Notes under the pieces: generated by a model
The model's input: only the letters and a program-made list of their open reading frames with translations
Told to the model about the DNA's origin: nothing
Database searches by the model: none
Assembly (NCBI RefSeq): GCF_010093595.1
Contig: NW_022985439.1
Span: forward strand, 949,713-1,013,712
Direction of reading: 5' to 3'
From: Mytilinidion resinicola
Lineage: Eukaryota > Ascomycota > Dothideomycetes > Mytilinidiales > Mytilinidiaceae
DNA length: 64,000 nt
Shown here: positions 3,152-23,903 of the stretch, piece after piece
Position numbering within the stretch: the stretch's first letter is position 1
Layout of the letters: each line of letters starts with the position of its first letter
Program-made: the position numbers and the translations under genes

Positions 3152-6100
3152 CTACACCCCATCCACACACTCCTCAACCACACTCGCCAACATCCCCAAC
3201 CCAAAAAAGCCCGCCACACTCCCATAAACCCCCAAGCGACTCTTAACATCCTCCCTCTTCCGCGTCCCTACCCACTCCCCAGCACAAGCACAATGCTCCA
3301 TAAACTCATTCGCCCTCAGCCTCCCACACTTTCCACACTTTAGATCCTGCGTACACCACTCCACAACCATCTTCTGCACCTCCGCCACCAGCCGCTCCTC
3401 AATACGCAAGCGATCATACGGCGTATTGCACATCTCACACTTCCACTTCGGTAGCACCGGCGCCGCAGCATCCGCCTCTCTATTCGCTGCAGGAGGCGGC
3501 AGCAATTCCGCCGCGCGACAGAGGTCGAGGTCGCGGACAGCCGTGCATTCTTCGCAGACGAGACCGCGGACCCAGAGGCTGCGACTGGGATTCACAAAAG
3601 CGGCTTCGCGGCTGAATTCGCGGATTTCGAAGAGCTGGAGGAGCTCTTTGCGGAGGAGGCGGGCTTCGAGCGTGATGGTGTTGTCGAGGCTGAGGACCTG
3701 CGTTATGCTTTTCACGAGTTGAAGGACTGGGTTTGAGAGGTTGAGATGCGAGCCTGGGAGGGAGGGGAAGACCCAGTCCGAGACGAGTTCGGCGTGGAGG
3801 GACTCGGTGTGTTGACGGCGTAGGAGAGCGCCGACTTGCTTGAAGAGCGGTTTTGTGAAGGATTTGGGGAGGACTTGGGTGTTGTCGGTTGGGTCGACAG
3901 TTAGTGACCTCAGGGCTAATTGCGTCGCCCTGGGAGCGACACCATCGATGGCTGCGGGACGTTTGCGGCCGTGCATGACATCGATGAAGTCGACCACTGT
4001 ATCGTGGAACGCCGGTTGTAGCGGCGCAGGCAAAAAGGATGCGAGCTGCCAGCACATGATGGTATCAAGCTGCTGCTCGTCCGCTTCGACGACCTTAGTA
4101 CAGCCTTTACCTCCGTAGTTGAACTCATCGTACCACGCCAAGTAGTCCCAGTACTCCCGGATCTCGAGGTCTAGAAACTGGAAGAGCGGCTTCGCCTGTA
4201 CCGTCTTGAGGATGTACTGACTATACGCAAAGGCATTTCCGACCTCTGCTTTCGTCGTTTGCAGAAGCAGTCGATTCGCACTCGCGAACACGATATGCGA
4301 TCCCACGCGCCGGAAGTCCGTCATCAGTTGCTGTAGTGCTTTTCGGCTCATCATCTGTACGTAGTAATGTAGGCTTCTGTCGTATAAAAAAGACCCAGGG
4401 CTCTCCACCCATCGCACAAGATGCTGGACCATTACGTCGGCCATGTACCCTCCTCGCTCAGCTTCGTGCCACCAGGCCTTCACCATTTCGCGAAGGACCA
4501 TGATGCCGGCTGTGGCAAAAGCGTTGTCGGCGTAGATGACGTTTGTGCCGTCATTAGGGGCATCGTAAGCAGGTGCGGCAGGGTTGAATGAGATAGAGTC
4601 GGAACCTTCGGCTTCGTTGATAACGGAGGAAGAAAGAATGGTGTTGATTGCGAGATTGCGAAGGGTGAGATCAATGCAGACAGAGGAGTAAGTTCCAGGG
4701 TTATTGATAGAAGGCATTTCAACAGTCTCCATAGGAGCGAGAATCTCGTCTTTTTCATAGCCTGCATGATCAGGTTTGGGACCACCAGACCACCACAGAA
4801 CGACCTTCTCTTTCCGTAGCCGCCTCGCATAAGCAATGTCGATGAGGAAACGTGGGTCGTTGCTTTCGAGATTGCAGAGCGGGATGTCTCCATATCGAGA
4901 AAGTTCTACTAAATGTGATATCCAGGAGCCCAAGTCTAAGTAATGGGTTACAAGACGTTTTGCAACGAACGACTGCCAGCCGAGAGGAGGTAGTTGTTTG
5001 TCTGACTCGTCCGGCTTCAGGGGTAGGATCGGTAGGTCTTTGAGAATTGGGACCTCGTGAGACAGAAGATTGTGATTCTGTGATTGGATAACGAGAACCA
5101 ACGGTTTCCCTTCCTCTGTCTTCATCTTCTTGATAGCATCTCCAATCTCGAGATGCGCCTTTCGTTTGGTAGTGACTTGAACGGTCCGGAAATGTATGTC
5201 GGTTTGATAATCGAAGCACTCTTGCCACGGCTCTCCGCCAGACTCTTCCAAACGCCGTGCAAACATGTCCTTGTATATCCGATCAACGTTCGGCAGACCC
5301 TGACTATCTTTGGACTTGGTTTGAATGATGACATGGGCGGTATTCTTCGAGGTTGAGAACAAGGCAAAAATCTGTCGATCTCCAGAGCTGACGTGGTAGA
5401 GGTAGAGATATCCAAGGGAAGCCTGGCTCAAGTACGGATTTTGCGATGGCACCCGTCGGAGAGCGGACAGGTCGAATCCTTGCTCTAGACCTTTTCCAAG
5501 AACACCTTTCTGAGTCTCGTCGAAGGTGCAAATACTACCAAGTTCGAGAACCGCTCGAACGTTTAGTGGTACTTGCTTCTCGTAGACACCTTCAACACTT
5601 GGGTGATTGAATAAAACAGAGAGCTTTTTCGACTCGTTGACATATACTTGCTCAGGCATCAGAAGCTTGAACAAATGTACCGATGGATGTCCATTGGGTA
5701 GAGTGTGATTAAGGACTTTCTCTACTGAACAGCCATCGATAGACACGTCAGGTAAATCGTCTCCTCGCAGATTAAGATATATCTGCCGAGGCACAATGAC
5801 CCTCAAGATGTGAATTTTCTTGTCGATCAAGACGAAAGCTCTAACCTCTCCAGGCGTGTCGGTGTCTCGCAGTTGAATCAATTGCCACGTGCTGATATAC
5901 AACATCTCTGCCTGGTTTCTGAAGAAGCTTCCGATCGCATCCGATGAATCTGTCTGTTTCTCGCCAAAGAGCTGTCGTCTCCGCTTTCGGGCTTGCTTCT
6001 GGATCTTCCACTTCTTTTTCTGGTACTGCAGCCATCCGTTGTAGTCCTCGGTGATGGATGGCATGTATTTGGGTAAGCTCGCAAAAGGATCGGCAGGTAC

Positions 6101-9100
6101 AGCAGGTTCCGGTTGCTTTCGTTTCTGGACCATTTTCGTGACTACACCTCTCCTCGCTGCCACCGCCTGAGAGACTTGAGTCATCTTCGAACCGCCAAAG
6201 TCTTCCAGATCGAGCACCCGGTTCTGGAGAATATTGGTGTCTACGTCAACCAGAGTCTTCTTGTCAAACAGATCAGTCATCTTCTTTTGTTTCAAGACAT
6301 CGTCCTTGATCCGAATCCTTCGGGCTAGCCAGTCTGGGTGAGGAACGCGCGGAACGGGATTTTCAACTTTCTGAAGAGCTGCAGGTATCGTGATAAGCTT
6401 CTGAACCACGGAGCCGAGACGTTCCATGTAGTAGCTCCAGTCAATGATCGATCTGGGATCCATATCCCCGGGGTCTTCTTTCATCCATTTTCGTAGGAAA
6501 TAGGTCTTGACTGAATCCTCAGCAGAGAATATCGCCACAGGTATGGCTCTCTCTGTAACAGGTGAATTTTTCGGCCGAGACGAGATAATGTACTTGCAGT
6601 TCAAGCCCTTGTCCTTGATCATTTGCTCGCCAAGAAACTCTGCAAGTCTCTTTGCGGTCGTGATAGCAGTTGACTTCTGAGCTCCGTACTCCTCAAGAGT
6701 CTTGGCCATGCTCTTATTTTCGCAAATCAAGTCGATGAGCTCTTCATCAGCGAGGGTAGAACCATGCTGATCAAGCACATCTAGCCATCGATTTGCAACC
6801 TTGGCGACAGCTCCGTAAGTCTCGGTCAGAGTTGTGCCTTCCAAGAAGAATTTGAAAATTTGAGTTTGGAAGATCTTGATAAGCTTCAACTCTCCTCTCC
6901 GCTTGACCTCGAACCCTTTCAACTCAGCGAGACTGCCATCGTGGTTGAAGACTGCGTAACGCTTTTTCAAATTCTTGTCTTCTTCCTTGGAGGTGGGCAA
7001 GATCATAGCCTTATACGGACCGTCCACCTCGAAGAAGATTGTATTGTCGCTATGTGTCTCGTATCGAAATGTTTCGGGATCGACAAGGGTCTGGTATTGA
7101 TGGTTCGTGAATTTGGCATGGACGTGATGGTTCAGCATGACACAAGGATATGAGATAAACACCTTCTTGCCGTTCTTGAGTTTGAATGAGAAGTTTTCCG
7201 GAAATGTTGCGGGCAGAATACACCAGATACCGTCGGTGTCTAGTTCCAGGGGCCGTCCAATTCTGTCTACGAGCTGTCTAGCCATTTGAATGATCTTGGC
7301 TCCAGTCAAGCAAGTGACACCGGCCATTTCCATGGAGTACCAACGAGAACCCTTTCTCATAACGTAGCCGTAGAAGCTGTTCAAGATGACTTTGTGGGCC
7401 AACTGAAGTGAGTCGAACAGGATAATCATCTTCTTGGCTTCATCGATCTCTGCGCTAGGCGCACCAGCAGACTTAAGCGCATCCGTCTTACCTTTCCAGA
7501 CTTTCTGCTTGCCCTTGAAGTCATATCTTCGATCTCGGAAGTCTTTGACAGTATCAACGTAGAAGGGATTCTCTCTCTGGCAGATGATAGCCTCTTTCTC
7601 AATTGTCTTTGTGTCATGGATCTTGTGGTAGATCTTCTTGCTGTACTCCGTCAATCGTTTCTTGACTATCGTGGCTTGTTCGTCTACTGGCAGATCCTGG
7701 AAAGTCCGAACGGGGCCACTTTTATATTTTGGGGGAAACCGTTCGTTTTCTAGGGCATGCCGTATCATGTTGTACTCGTCTCGCTTAGCTGGCAAGAACT
7801 CACCTCTCCAGGACCAAGGCATCCTTCGATCGCATGTTTTGCCTGGGCGATTGAAGTCGCAGGCAGCACAATCAGCCTCTTCAATCATGGAATCCGGCTG
7901 TAATCGATTCGTCGTCATGATATTCGGATACATGGAGGCGACGTCTAGATGGTATATTGAAGGGTTTTCGCTCCTGTTAGGGGTATTCTTCAGCTTCAAC
8001 AGCTTCTCGATGATCTGACCCTTGACTTCGTCATAATTTACGATGTCCTCCACCTGTTTCTTCTCTTCTACTACAATACTGAACTTGAGGGCTGCGTCTA
8101 GATCTTCGATGAGTTCATCAATGGCAGTTGGATCTAGCACGAAGTTGCAAGGGATATCACTTCGAAAGACACCTGCTTCGATACTCTCGACATGACCTCC
8201 CACATACGTTTCTGAGTCCAGGAGATGGCCATCCCAGAAGGCTTCCTTAGGTGCTTGGTGCTTGTTCGGCAGTACGATGCCCTTCTGATACGCCTGTACC
8301 ATGAGCAACATCTCGCAAAGAGTGCCAGTCCCCTTTCGCAACACATCGTCCGGCCCAAGGGGAACGATCGTACATAGCGAGAAGATGAAGGGATGGACGT
8401 ATTTCATGTACAAGTAGTACGTAGCAACTGCATCTGAAACGGAGTATTCTGCCAACGTCTGAGGCCGTTCGCTTGCGTATGGAGTCATGAGTTCGGGGTC
8501 CAATTCGTCTGGATCGTAGCCCAATTTCGCTACAGTAACTGCTTTCAAGCCTCGACTTCCTTGTGGGAGGTAACTGTCTCGATTGACCCACGCAAAGGCA
8601 TCCATGTGTGCGCAGTAATTAGACTGGTAGATGTCTTCGCTGTTCTTCCGGAAGCCGATCTCCTGGTACATGTCGATTCCTAGAACGCTCGCCCGTGCCT
8701 CCACGAATGGCCAATCAAAAAAGTCTCCGTTGTATGTTACAATGACCGTTGGCTTTGCTTCCTTGATGTGCTCGAAGAAACGTTCTAAGAGGCCTTTTTC
8801 ATCCGGCTCGTTGAATATTATGAAAGGACCGTCGTACTCCGGCTTGGGTGTATAGTCGAAATCTGAGATATCCTCGGAGACAATCTCGCGGTTCGTGATG
8901 AGGAACCCCTGGCCATCGATCATGTATGAAATCATCATGATCTGGTCGACTATCGCATCCGGAAATTTCAGGGGGAGCTTTGTACACTCGATATCGAATG
9001 CCATAACAACGGGATCGGCGCGTTGCAGTCGCTCTTCTATGCATGTCAATGAAACAACGCCGTGTTTCGCTTCTACCGTGTACCATTTTCCAATGCGGAT

Positions 9101-10015
9101 ATCTATATGAGTTAGCCAGCCCTTGAAACCAAGCCTACGTAACCTACCTTTATCAATCGCAACCCGAACGTGGTATGGTACGTCGTACTCTCGTATATCA
9201 ACAATGAAATCGCTCGCATCTTGTATGCCATTAGGTCGTTTCTCGTAATCTTGGTCGTCGTCAAAAATATCAAAGCCAGCATTTGCACTGGAAACCATTA
9301 GCAACTAACACAATCCAACTATGGACTGAGCAGTGCTCACCTAGCAACTTCCGCATATGTATCCATCGCGTTCATCTTCTTCTTATTCTTCTCCGCCAGG
9401 GGTGTAATGACCTTCCGCACCCCCAAGAGATCTCCCACATTCGCAAACGAAAGCTTCAGGAATGTTCTCCGGTAGCCCAAAAGATGATTTGGCTGTCTCG
9501 TATCAGCATGCTCCTTATAGTGTCTCCAAATGCCCATCTCGGCGACTCACCATCTGCAAATCCTCCTTCTCGACCCGCTTCACACCCTTCACTAAGCCCT
9601 CAAAAGCTCTCCGACACCACTCCTCCACCTCTGGCTCTTTCCCCCTCTTCACCGCGACCAAGAAGTACGGATCATACTCCACCGTCGCCTTAAATGTGCC
9701 TCCGTCCTCCTCGATGAAGTAGAAGTCCACGCCGGCGCGCCCTCCAGGTACATTCTCGTCCTCCACACTGGTAGAGTGCATGTTACACAGCCAGCCGACC
9801 TTCTTACGTCCGGCATCGTACCGCGCAAAGTCCATAGACTCATCGATAGCATTCGCGAGCCGCGTCGACTCGATCTTCTCAGCTAGGGAGCTGGCTTCCG
9901 TGTTGCGGAGAGAGGAGGCGTCGATTGTCTTGGGTTTGCGGGAAGACGAGGAGTAGGAAGATTGGCCTTGCTTGCCTACGCGGCGGAAAGACTGTCCAGC
10001 GCGGCGGGGTGCCAT
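3152..10015 (-). CDS. POL2: DNA polymerase epsilon catalytic subunit A
   Basis: Leading-strand replicative polymerase with 3'-5' proofreading; nuclear replisome. Exons on the minus strand: 10015-9551, 9492-9341, 9287-9148, 9102-3152, totalling 2235 aa, the normal length. Visible in order: exonuclease motif FDIECTKLPL with D289/E291 (equivalent to yeast D290/E292), YNGDFFDWPF (Exo II), YSVSDA (Exo III), the Fe-S cysteine region CAACDFNRPGKTC, polymerase motif A DVASMYPNIM, motif B KVILNSFYGYVMRKG, motif C ELDTDGIWC, then the inactive C-terminal polymerase half and two terminal zinc modules (CEEC...CEMC and CGKC...CAC). The 45-nt intron 9147-9103 is stop-free and in frame, so naive translation reads through it. 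Removing it restores the conserved run from VRVAIDK to DIRIGKWY. The ATG at 10015 opens MAPRRAGQSFRRVGKQ, the usual kind of basic N-terminus. Confidence 0.96.
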
Positions 10016-19444: not shown

Positions 19445-19586
19445 GGTCTGTTGGTCTAGTGGTATGATTCTCGCTTAGGGTTCACCTTAAGTCGTTTGCG
19501 AGAGGTAAGCATCGTCATCAAATCACTATTCAGTACAAAAAACTAACGACCTCATCAGGCCCCGCGTTCGAGTCGCGGACAGACCC
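19445..19586 (+). tRNA. tRNA-Pro(AGG) with two introns
   Basis: Acceptor stem GGTCTGT (19445-19451) pairs perfectly with ACAGACC (19579-19585), discriminator C19586. D-arm 19454-19468 has TAGTGGTAT in the loop. Anticodon stem CTCGC (19470-19474) pairs with GCGAG (19498-19502); anticodon AGG is 19477-19479. A 16-nt intron, 19481-19496, sits at the canonical 37/38 position. A second insertion, 19505-19558 (54 nt), interrupts the variable loop between positions 45 and 46. It begins GTAAGC, has CTAAC near 19543 and ends CATCAG, exactly a spliceosomal layout. With both removed, T-stem CCGCG/CGCGG and T-loop TTCGAGT give a normal 72-nt tRNA (CCA not counted). A- and B-box sequences are intact. Confidence 0.88.
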
Positions 19587-19599
19587 TTATCTGATTATA

Positions 19600-19616
19600 T
19601 TTTTTGGCTTTTTTTT
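19600..19616 (+). terminator. Pol III terminator runs of tRNA-Pro(AGG)
   Basis: A T6 run (19600-19605) and a T8 run (19609-19616) follow the tRNA 3' end by 14-30 nt, as expected for RNA polymerase III termination. Confidence 0.7.
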
Positions 19617-22218: not shown

Positions 22219-22360
22219 GGCCCAATGGTCTAGTGGTATGATTCCTGCTTTGGGTATTACATCTCAAACCTGCAGGAGGCCCGTGAGTACACACCGCACT
22301 AATAATCTTCGAACTTGTAGCTAACAATATATACAGCGCGTTCGAATCGCGGTTGGGCCC
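22219..22360 (+). tRNA. tRNA-Pro(UGG) with two introns
   Basis: Acceptor stem GGCCCAA (22219-22225) pairs perfectly with TTGGGCC (22353-22359), discriminator C22360. Anticodon stem CCTGC (22244-22248) pairs with GCAGG (22272-22276); anticodon TGG is 22251-22253. A canonical 16-nt intron occupies 22255-22270 at 37/38. A second insertion, 22283-22336 (54 nt), lies inside the T-stem between positions 49 and 50: starts GTGAGT, contains CTAAC at 22321-22325, ends TACAG. Removing both yields T-stem CCGCG/CGCGG, loop TTCGAAT and a perfect 72-nt cloverleaf. TTTT runs at 22367-22370 and 22373-22376 can terminate Pol III. The body is nearly the same as that of the AGG tRNA 2.8 kb away; the second introns share no sequence beyond the splice signals. 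Confidence 0.88.
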
Positions 22361-23903
22361 GTTCTCTTTTGCTTTTCGGCATTCTTTTTTGCTCTTGTGG
22401 AGGTATGTACAGGGGCATTGGTGGCACAACAGCACAGGCGGCAAAGGAATGCTACTATTGGACTTGGTACTCGTATAAGCGGGGTGACGACATGGACATG
22501 CTTGTTTCCTTTACTTCACATGGAGAACCACATTTTCAAAAGTCACGGCGCGCATCTCAAGGTGCTGAGGAGTACGAGAGCAGCTCTCGAAGTCCAGTCC
22601 AGAGCAGAGCATTTCAAGTAGCGACAAGTAGCCATTATCAAACCCTTCCAGTTCACAGCCTCGAATTCTTTACATCGTGTTCAAACCGTGCATGAGATTA
22701 TAGGGCACCATAGACGCCTTCGTTACACATACAATTTACTCACGAGTACCTCCTCGAGCTTGAAGTAGAGTGTTTTCAGCCTGGAAAAGCACGCCAATCA
22801 CACTCCTTCCAATTCAAGATCTCCAATCCTTTACACCCCATGCATATCTTCCTCACTTCCACGAAGCCACTCAAACGCCGCTTTCCAGCATGCAAATCTC
22901 CCTCACATACGCCTCGATATCAATCGCAAAGCGTCTCGTTCGTAAAATCGAAGCTAATTGTCGCAGCTGGGCACCGCCTTTGTTACTGTTTGGGGTACTT
23001 CTATAGACTCTTGGAACCTCCAGCTCGATGTAAGGTAGCGGGGAGTTCGAATCCTTTGATTCTATTTTAAGGGTTACGGATCCACGGCTACACTAGTTTG
23101 GCGTCTTGATATCAGTACCGACTTTGGGATATTCTCTGGACAGACTATTCAGCTAATATAACTGATACGTGAGTGCCTTCTATCCTAATCATAGATATCT
23201 GACTTATGACACTTGTGATACTACGGCGAAAAATTGCATTCAAATTAATTCAAGCACGTTACCTCGGCATCCATCATCCCTGAGCACCTCCTCTTTCACA
23301 CTGCCATGAATGTAACACCCCCCAACCAACTGATACGAACCAGCTCACCATGCAACACACCTGGCTCTAATCTCAAAAGCCGAATATCTGCGTGATCATG
23401 AGAGGCATCATACGAAACAATTCTATATTTGAGAGGGAAACCTCCTGGATGCTGACGGCTGGCGAGTTTCGTCGGTGAAGTGGCATTACCATTAAGGCTA
23501 CGCGTTCTTCTTGTGACTGAGTAGGAAGGAAAGAATGATGAAGTGTGCGACTATGTGTTCGTCATACTGGCCCCATTTGGTGCTGCCGCGTACGACGAGT
23601 ATGTGTTCTCAACTAAACTGCCCCGTGAGATGATTTGTCCAATGTGACACCTTTGGAGAGAAGATAATGAAGCAATAAGAGAACGATTACAAAAAATACC
23701 TGCTAACCCAGTGAGCGTCAAATGTAGTAGATGAGAATGTGTGGACACTGCGAGTATGTGGAGGACGAAAACCGCCTATTATCAGTATATAAATGTTCTG
23801 ATAACGAGAGCACATGGAGGTTGCATAGCGACGGCGCAAATTGTGAAACTCGTTGGATATCACCGACGCTCTGAGACACACGCTTGTATACGTGTGTGAA
23901 GTC
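22361..23903. other. Long intergenic stretch, no gene supported
   Basis: Only short open frames. A B-box-like GAGTTCGAATCC at 23044-23055 has no A-box or matching acceptor stem around it. No domain is recognisable in any frame. Confidence 0.45.

Follow-up and report, generated by a model that had tools for sequence, protein, structure and literature searches.

In nuclear genomes, tRNA introns are described as residing exclusively between positions 37 and 38, with exceptions in algae (excerpt of PMC3978253). Additional tRNA introns outside this site, sometimes several per gene, are described for archaea, Cyanidioschyzon merolae, and the nucleomorph of Guillardia theta (excerpt of PMC4090602). 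These are read as targets of an endonuclease—of the bulge–helix–bulge (BHB) type—or are inserts of 3 to 24 nt whose mode of removal is unknown. Introns of the mRNA type have been encountered in structural RNAs as well: nuclear rDNA of lichen-forming ascomycetes bears such introns, reported to be removed by the splicing machinery of the mycobiont (PMC8527467), and spliceosomal introns are described in fungal U3 snoRNA, a small structured RNA (PMC5832005). According to the latter paper, from 2017, U3 and U6 are the only small structured RNAs for which frequent interruption is known.

The U6 snRNA of Schizosaccharomyces pombe and other fungi, which carries a spliceosomal intron too, is itself a part of the spliceosome, whereas the host RNA described here is a tRNA. 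U6 was reportedly surveyed by Canzler et al. in 2016. In the dothideomycete ascomycete Mytilinidion resinicola (genome of 47.1 Mb in 44 contigs), we find tRNA genes whose inserts—in contrast to the archaeal, algal, and nucleomorph introns—show GT or GA at the 5' end, a branch motif, and a final AG, and lack a full BHB motif. The lichen rDNA introns differ in that they reside in a Pol I transcript and in rRNA rather than tRNA, and U3 is not a tRNA either. Furthermore, unlike U6, six of the 11 interrupted tRNA genes additionally have a 37/38 intron (9–19 nt). Such ordinary eukaryotic introns, also present in each of the three Pro genes found here, lie in the anticodon loop only and carry no spliceosomal signals (0/36 here). 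No earlier report of spliceosomal introns in nuclear tRNA genes was found among the matches listed for titles and abstract starts of the open-licence literature, where such a report could be missed.

The window, i.e., the whole stretch of 64,000 nucleotides that was analysed (G000:C3:949713-1013712), also encodes the catalytic subunit of DNA polymerase epsilon as a single reading frame of 2050 codons (3152–9304, − strand). Protein matches assign the genome to Dothideomycetes and, further, to M. resinicola: a protein assembled from reading frames of the window matches one of this species at 100% along 99% of its length. Neither ARAGORN at default settings nor Rfam at gathering scores reports a tRNA in the raw window. 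The tRNA-Pro(AGG) gene is organized as follows (window coordinates):

19445..19586, + strand: tRNA-Pro(AGG) gene with two introns, 142 bp
19445..19480, + strand: exon 1, tRNA positions 1–37
19481..19496, + strand: ordinary 37/38 intron, 16 nt, without spliceosomal signals
19497..19504, + strand: exon 2, positions 38–45
19505..19558, + strand: spliceosomal-type intron, 54 nt, GTAAGC..ACTAAC..CAG, between positions 45 and 46
19559..19586, + strand: exon 3, positions 46–73, with the B box inside
19600..19605, + strand: T6 run after the gene, likely the Pol III terminator

The insert reads GTAAGC...ACTAACG...TCAG and places the branch A 12 nt before its end. Removal of both introns yields a mature tRNA of 72 nt with 7/7 acceptor, 3/4 D, 5/5 anticodon, and 5/5 T-stem pairs. 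ARAGORN reports no tRNA for the raw gene, whereas tRNA-Pro(agg) is called once the 54 nt are taken out. The coordinates and the two-intron anatomy that had been proposed for this gene in the initial annotation hold; its description as a perfect 72-nt tRNA-Pro holds for the length, while "perfect" is slightly generous given the D-stem. Free folding with the insert in or out did not return the textbook cloverleaf in either case and does not separate the hypotheses.

At a distance of 2.8 kb lies a second interrupted Pro gene, which is absent from the initial annotation:

22219..22360, + strand: tRNA-Pro(TGG) gene with two introns
22255..22270, + strand: 37/38 intron, 16 nt
22283..22336, + strand: spliceosomal-type intron, 54 nt, GTGAGT..GCTAAC..CAG, between positions 49 and 50 (T-stem)
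22367..22370, + strand: T4 run 3' of the gene

For the raw Pro-TGG gene, ARAGORN offers an alternative reading as Pro with one intron of 61 nt. Compared with the two-intron reading, this fit weakens the anticodon stem (4/5 versus 5/5) and the T-stem (4/5 versus 5/5) and expands the variable loop from 5 to 14 nt. Three Pro genes in the genome—one each for AGG, TGG, and CGG—match a 28-nt pattern taken from the proline 5' half when three mismatches at most are allowed. Pro-CGG, on contig 10, has the 37/38 intron only and is the sole one of the three without an extra intron; an insert-free copy of Pro-AGG, which would have turned the interrupted gene into a candidate pseudogene in the initial annotation, was sought with this same pattern and is not among them. 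A DNA search with spliced Pro-AGG matched its own gene only, and it has to be regarded as insensitive because it missed Pro-TGG too.

On the genome level, an Rfam tRNA search combined with pattern searches yielded 45 assigned tRNA genes and five further stretches that could not be assigned. The Rfam search was repeated at E 10, whereby 63 of 1387 candidates were scored; of the pattern places, 16 of 31 were inspected in one search (eight fetched, eight already in the set) and nine of 24 in another, and every place was inspected in three further searches. The gene list is thus incomplete, and copy numbers are lower bounds; within it, no gene was found for Met, Tyr, Glu, and Val-AAC. The five stretches outside the 45 (L045, L060 2188-2336, L097, L107, and L118) are odd, long-introned, degenerate, or truncated. 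L045 and L107 are degenerate and tRNA-like, with similar 5' ends and T-arms, and are perhaps pseudogenes; L118 (G000:C1:2259330-2259530) is the 5' part of a tRNA-Asp gene, truncated and inverted, about 2.9 kb from an intact Asp gene (L119).

Eleven of the 45 assigned genes are interrupted by spliceosomal-type inserts—12 in total, spread from the D-stem to the T-loop. Since the later pattern searches were aimed at missing isotypes and thereby enriched for interrupted genes, 11/45 is not an unbiased rate; among the assigned Rfam hits alone, the count is 5/34 (35 less L045). The inserts are distributed as follows:

Pro-AGG: 54 nt, 45/46
Pro-TGG: 54 nt, 49/50
Arg-ACG1: 51 nt, 52/53
Arg-ACG2 (L130, G000:C9:1351470-1351680): 56 nt, 55/56
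Arg-TCT: 53 nt, 53/54
Ser-AGA (L043/L046 pair with Ser-GCT1): 51 nt, 52/53
Ser-GCT1 (L043/L046 pair with Ser-AGA): 52 nt, 52/53
Ser-GCT2 (L082, G000:C25 from about 56733 on, + strand), two inserts, without a 37/38 intron: 49 nt at 30/31 and 50 nt in the variable arm
Ala-TGC (L036/L074, G000:C4): 49 nt, 10/11
Asp1 and Asp2: 56 nt each, variable loop

After splicing, all 11 genes fit the cloverleaf with 7/7 acceptor, three or four of four D, 5/5 anticodon, and 5/5 T-stem pairs and carry the expected anticodon. ARAGORN names 10 of the 11 spliced genes as expected; Arg-ACG2 is called Cys(aca), with its 9-nt intron placed one step off. On the 11 raw genes—with introns of up to 150 nt allowed—it finds nothing in seven, misnames Ser-GCT2 and Asp2, and assigns one long intron to Pro-TGG (the 61-nt reading) and to Asp1 (as Asp, 70 nt). 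A set of tRNA genes of this kind would suggest that, in other fungi too, interrupted tRNA genes escape the gene finders.

How far the cloverleaf itself fixes the insert ends was assessed for nine genes, Ser-GCT2 and Ala-TGC not among them, by counting the deletions that restore the best cloverleaf with motif rewards turned off. Arg-ACG2 allows for a single register, which is GT..AG, and Arg-TCT for two, one of them GT..AG. Ser-AGA and Ser-GCT1 have five and four registers, respectively, each with one GA..AG, and exactly one GT..AG is found among the 12 registers of Arg-ACG1 and among the 13 of Pro-TGG. In the variable-loop genes, 236 (Pro-AGG), 243 (Asp1), and 240 (Asp2) deletions are equally good—for Pro-AGG, two of the 236 are G[TA]..AG—and, hence, the structure does not decide the ends there. 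They rest on the splice signals, with which in view they were picked, and on the loops of insert-free relatives: AGGCC in Pro-CGG and AGAC in Asp3. Read with a single 69-nt intron, Asp2 scores 51 versus 55, with an anticodon stem of 4/5 and a variable loop of 10 nt; more generally, the one-intron readings of Pro-TGG, Asp1, and Asp2 require an anticodon stem that is less well paired (4/5 in the fits) along with a variable loop of 10–14 nt.

The inserts are uniform in their signals. All 12 end with AG; 10 start with GT and two with GA; their lengths range from 49 to 56 nt, and each bears a branch motif (CTAAC in 10, CTAAT in two) with the branch A 9–14 nt before the end. In random sequence matched to the inserts in base composition and length, GT together with a placed CTRAY and AG occurs at a frequency of 1.3e-4. 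As a control, 36 fitted 37/38 introns of the same genome—one of which, in Asp L119, was fitted in the wrong register—show a GT start in two cases, an AG end in two, CTRAY in one, and the combination G[TA]..CTRAY..AG in none. The pattern CTAAY..AGGTTCGANYC occurs at seven places, three of which are tRNA inserts, and its reversed control at nine.

For comparison with the mRNA introns of the host, eight introns from two genes of the window were used, five taken from the annotated protein and three placed from tblastn ends. They measure 48, 49, 49, 53, 54, 76, 91, and 234 nt, five of the eight thus falling between 48 and 54 nt, and six contain a CTRA-type motif with the A 9–13 nt before the end; of the other two, one has weaker motifs only and one has none. 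In end dinucleotides, branch distance, and length—which lies within the range of the host mRNA introns—the tRNA inserts correspond to U2-type introns, which start with GT and rarely with GC or GA. CTAAC proper is found in 10/12 tRNA inserts versus 0/8 mRNA introns (Fisher p 0.0007, a post hoc comparison on a small sample), which may reflect selection of the tRNA inserts for strong branch sites. The two GA-AG inserts, in Ser-AGA and Ser-GCT1, start with GAAAGT, and the junction reads CAG|GAAAGT. GA-AG sites with an AG upstream and an A downstream are described for two animals (excerpt of PMC7072748).

These two GA-type inserts have their position and first seven letters in common, and the pair does not stand out in a similarity test of all inserts. 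In this test, the notion of a mobile introner family was assessed on 66 pairs of 11 tRNA inserts (that of Arg-ACG2 not included) and one U6 insert, compared outside the motifs, and it was rejected: no more than two pairs stood out—the two Asp inserts (z 5.4) and one Ser/Asp combination (z 2.6)—so that nothing points to a recent burst of inserts. The U6 insert of 51 nt, GTACAC..ACTAAC..CTAG, is of the type seen in the tRNA genes and belongs to one of 17 U6 copies above the cut-off (L126, G000:C1:2369760-2369910, − strand). Of the uninterrupted copies, 14 are each preceded by TATATAT and possess a T run, 12 of them with the ACAGAGA box; two more copies (L127 and L128) have neither T run nor ACAGAGA box and look defective. 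The idea that the uninterrupted copies are retrocopies proving splicing was dropped, as these 14/14 resemble real genes in their TATATAT and T run. Some uninterrupted copies show a GTTCGA-like stretch just downstream.

Taken together, the 54-nt insert of Pro-AGG is very probably a genuine U2-type spliceosomal intron in a functional nuclear tRNA gene and part of a genome-wide set. The anatomy, the signals, the restored tRNA, the recurrence in 11 genes, and the lack of a detected insert-free copy for five isoacceptors are read directly from the DNA. The spliceosomal interpretation, already put forward for this insert in the initial annotation, has withstood the tests run and is supported by 11 more inserts in the same genome.

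One alternative is that the interrupted genes are pseudogenes—disabled by inserted introns or intron-like sequence, with intact copies elsewhere doing the work. Insertions in the D- and T-arms of eukaryotic tRNA genes are described as mostly affecting one of many synonymous genes and as supposed pseudogenes (Yoshihisa 2014, excerpt of PMC4090602), and here, too, one Asp gene—the third—and Pro-CGG are without a spliceosomal-type insert, in a copy search that is incomplete. Against this, every gene found of Pro-AGG (one), Pro-TGG (one), Arg-ACG (two), Ser-AGA (one), and Ser-GCT (two) carries an insert, and no insert-free gene for any of these was found within the searches made. The exons of 11/11 genes supply full acceptor, anticodon, and T stems, and those of Asp1 and Asp2 are identical even though their inserts have diverged by substitutions and indels that spare the branch and both splice sites. 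Random insertions, moreover, would not all show G[TA]..CTAAY..AG at 49–56 nt. Within the searches made, a set of disabled genes is very unlikely. Removal by a protein endonuclease, namely a tRNA splicing endonuclease that is unusually permissive, together with a ligase—as proposed for the noncanonical introns of Cyanidioschyzon and archaea—appears more improbable still. It would draw on the archaeal introns at 30/31, 45/46, 53/54, and further sites and on the noncanonical introns described in red-algal and nucleomorph tRNAs (excerpts of PMC4090602 and PMC3978253), and a central helix of 4 bp is possible in some register at four of the 12 junction pairs. Yet the full BHB motif occurs at none of the 12 (shuffle mean 0.17 per set), so that a BHB-type endonuclease intron at a noncanonical site was rejected as a candidate, and the 37/38 introns of this genome do without the GT/AG and branch signals (0/36). 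No role of these signals is known for an enzyme of this kind. Human TSEN, in addition, is described as reading the mature tRNA body including the D- and T-loops (excerpt of PMC10539383), which many of the inserts disrupt.

Transcription bears on a further alternative, namely that the inserts are spliceosomal and the interrupted genes are transcribed by Pol II or by read-through instead of Pol III. As a rule, splicing by the spliceosome goes together with Pol II. In line with this, the insert of Arg-ACG2 interrupts the B box within the T-loop and that of Ala-TGC lies in the A-box region—where the final AG of the intron stands in the place of A9 and G10 of the A box—and a TATA-like box (TATA[AT], 28–39 nt upstream) is present in only four of the nine interrupted genes for which the upstream sequence spans 45 nt or more. 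This rate, however, resembles that of uninterrupted genes (five of 10 checked, 26–45 nt upstream). All 11 interrupted genes are followed by a run of at least four T within 21 nt, no T run within the inserts is longer than four (Arg-TCT; two or three in the others), and GTTCRANNC is intact in 10 of the 11. Splicing outside Pol II also has described precedents in U6 and rRNA (excerpts of PMC8917221 and PMC8527467). Transcription by Pol II or read-through is very unlikely as an explanation for the set as a whole.

For spliceosomal introns in Pol III transcripts, the following sequence of events can be proposed from the gene anatomy. Pol III would transcribe Pro-AGG by means of the A and B boxes within the gene and stop at the T run. 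The spliceosome would then remove the second intron, with U1 at GTAAGC, U2 at ACTAAC, and CAG as the 3' site. Only after removal of this insert could the whole cloverleaf form; end processing would follow and, finally, the tRNA splicing endonuclease would act on the 37/38 intron. Human TSEN is described as needing the mature tRNA body, sensing the D- and T-loops (excerpt of PMC10539383), which fits a spliceosome that acts first.

The spliceosome is likely an obligatory tRNA-maturation enzyme in M. resinicola: all genes found for Pro-AGG, Pro-TGG, Arg-ACG, Ser-AGA, and Ser-GCT would need it, and in several of them the endonuclease would act thereafter—two unrelated machines on one Pol III transcript. 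Paralogues are interrupted at different sites, at 52/53 and 55/56 in Arg-ACG and at 52/53 versus 30/31 plus the variable arm in Ser-GCT, which points to a repeated gain of spliceosomal introns. The machine that splices mRNA is probably required for producing some components of the translation apparatus, a role not known for it. With tRNA genes that break the known intron rule, translation would come to depend on the spliceosome, and such genes would offer a clean system for studying the spliceosome on uncapped Pol III transcripts and the entry of introns into new genes.
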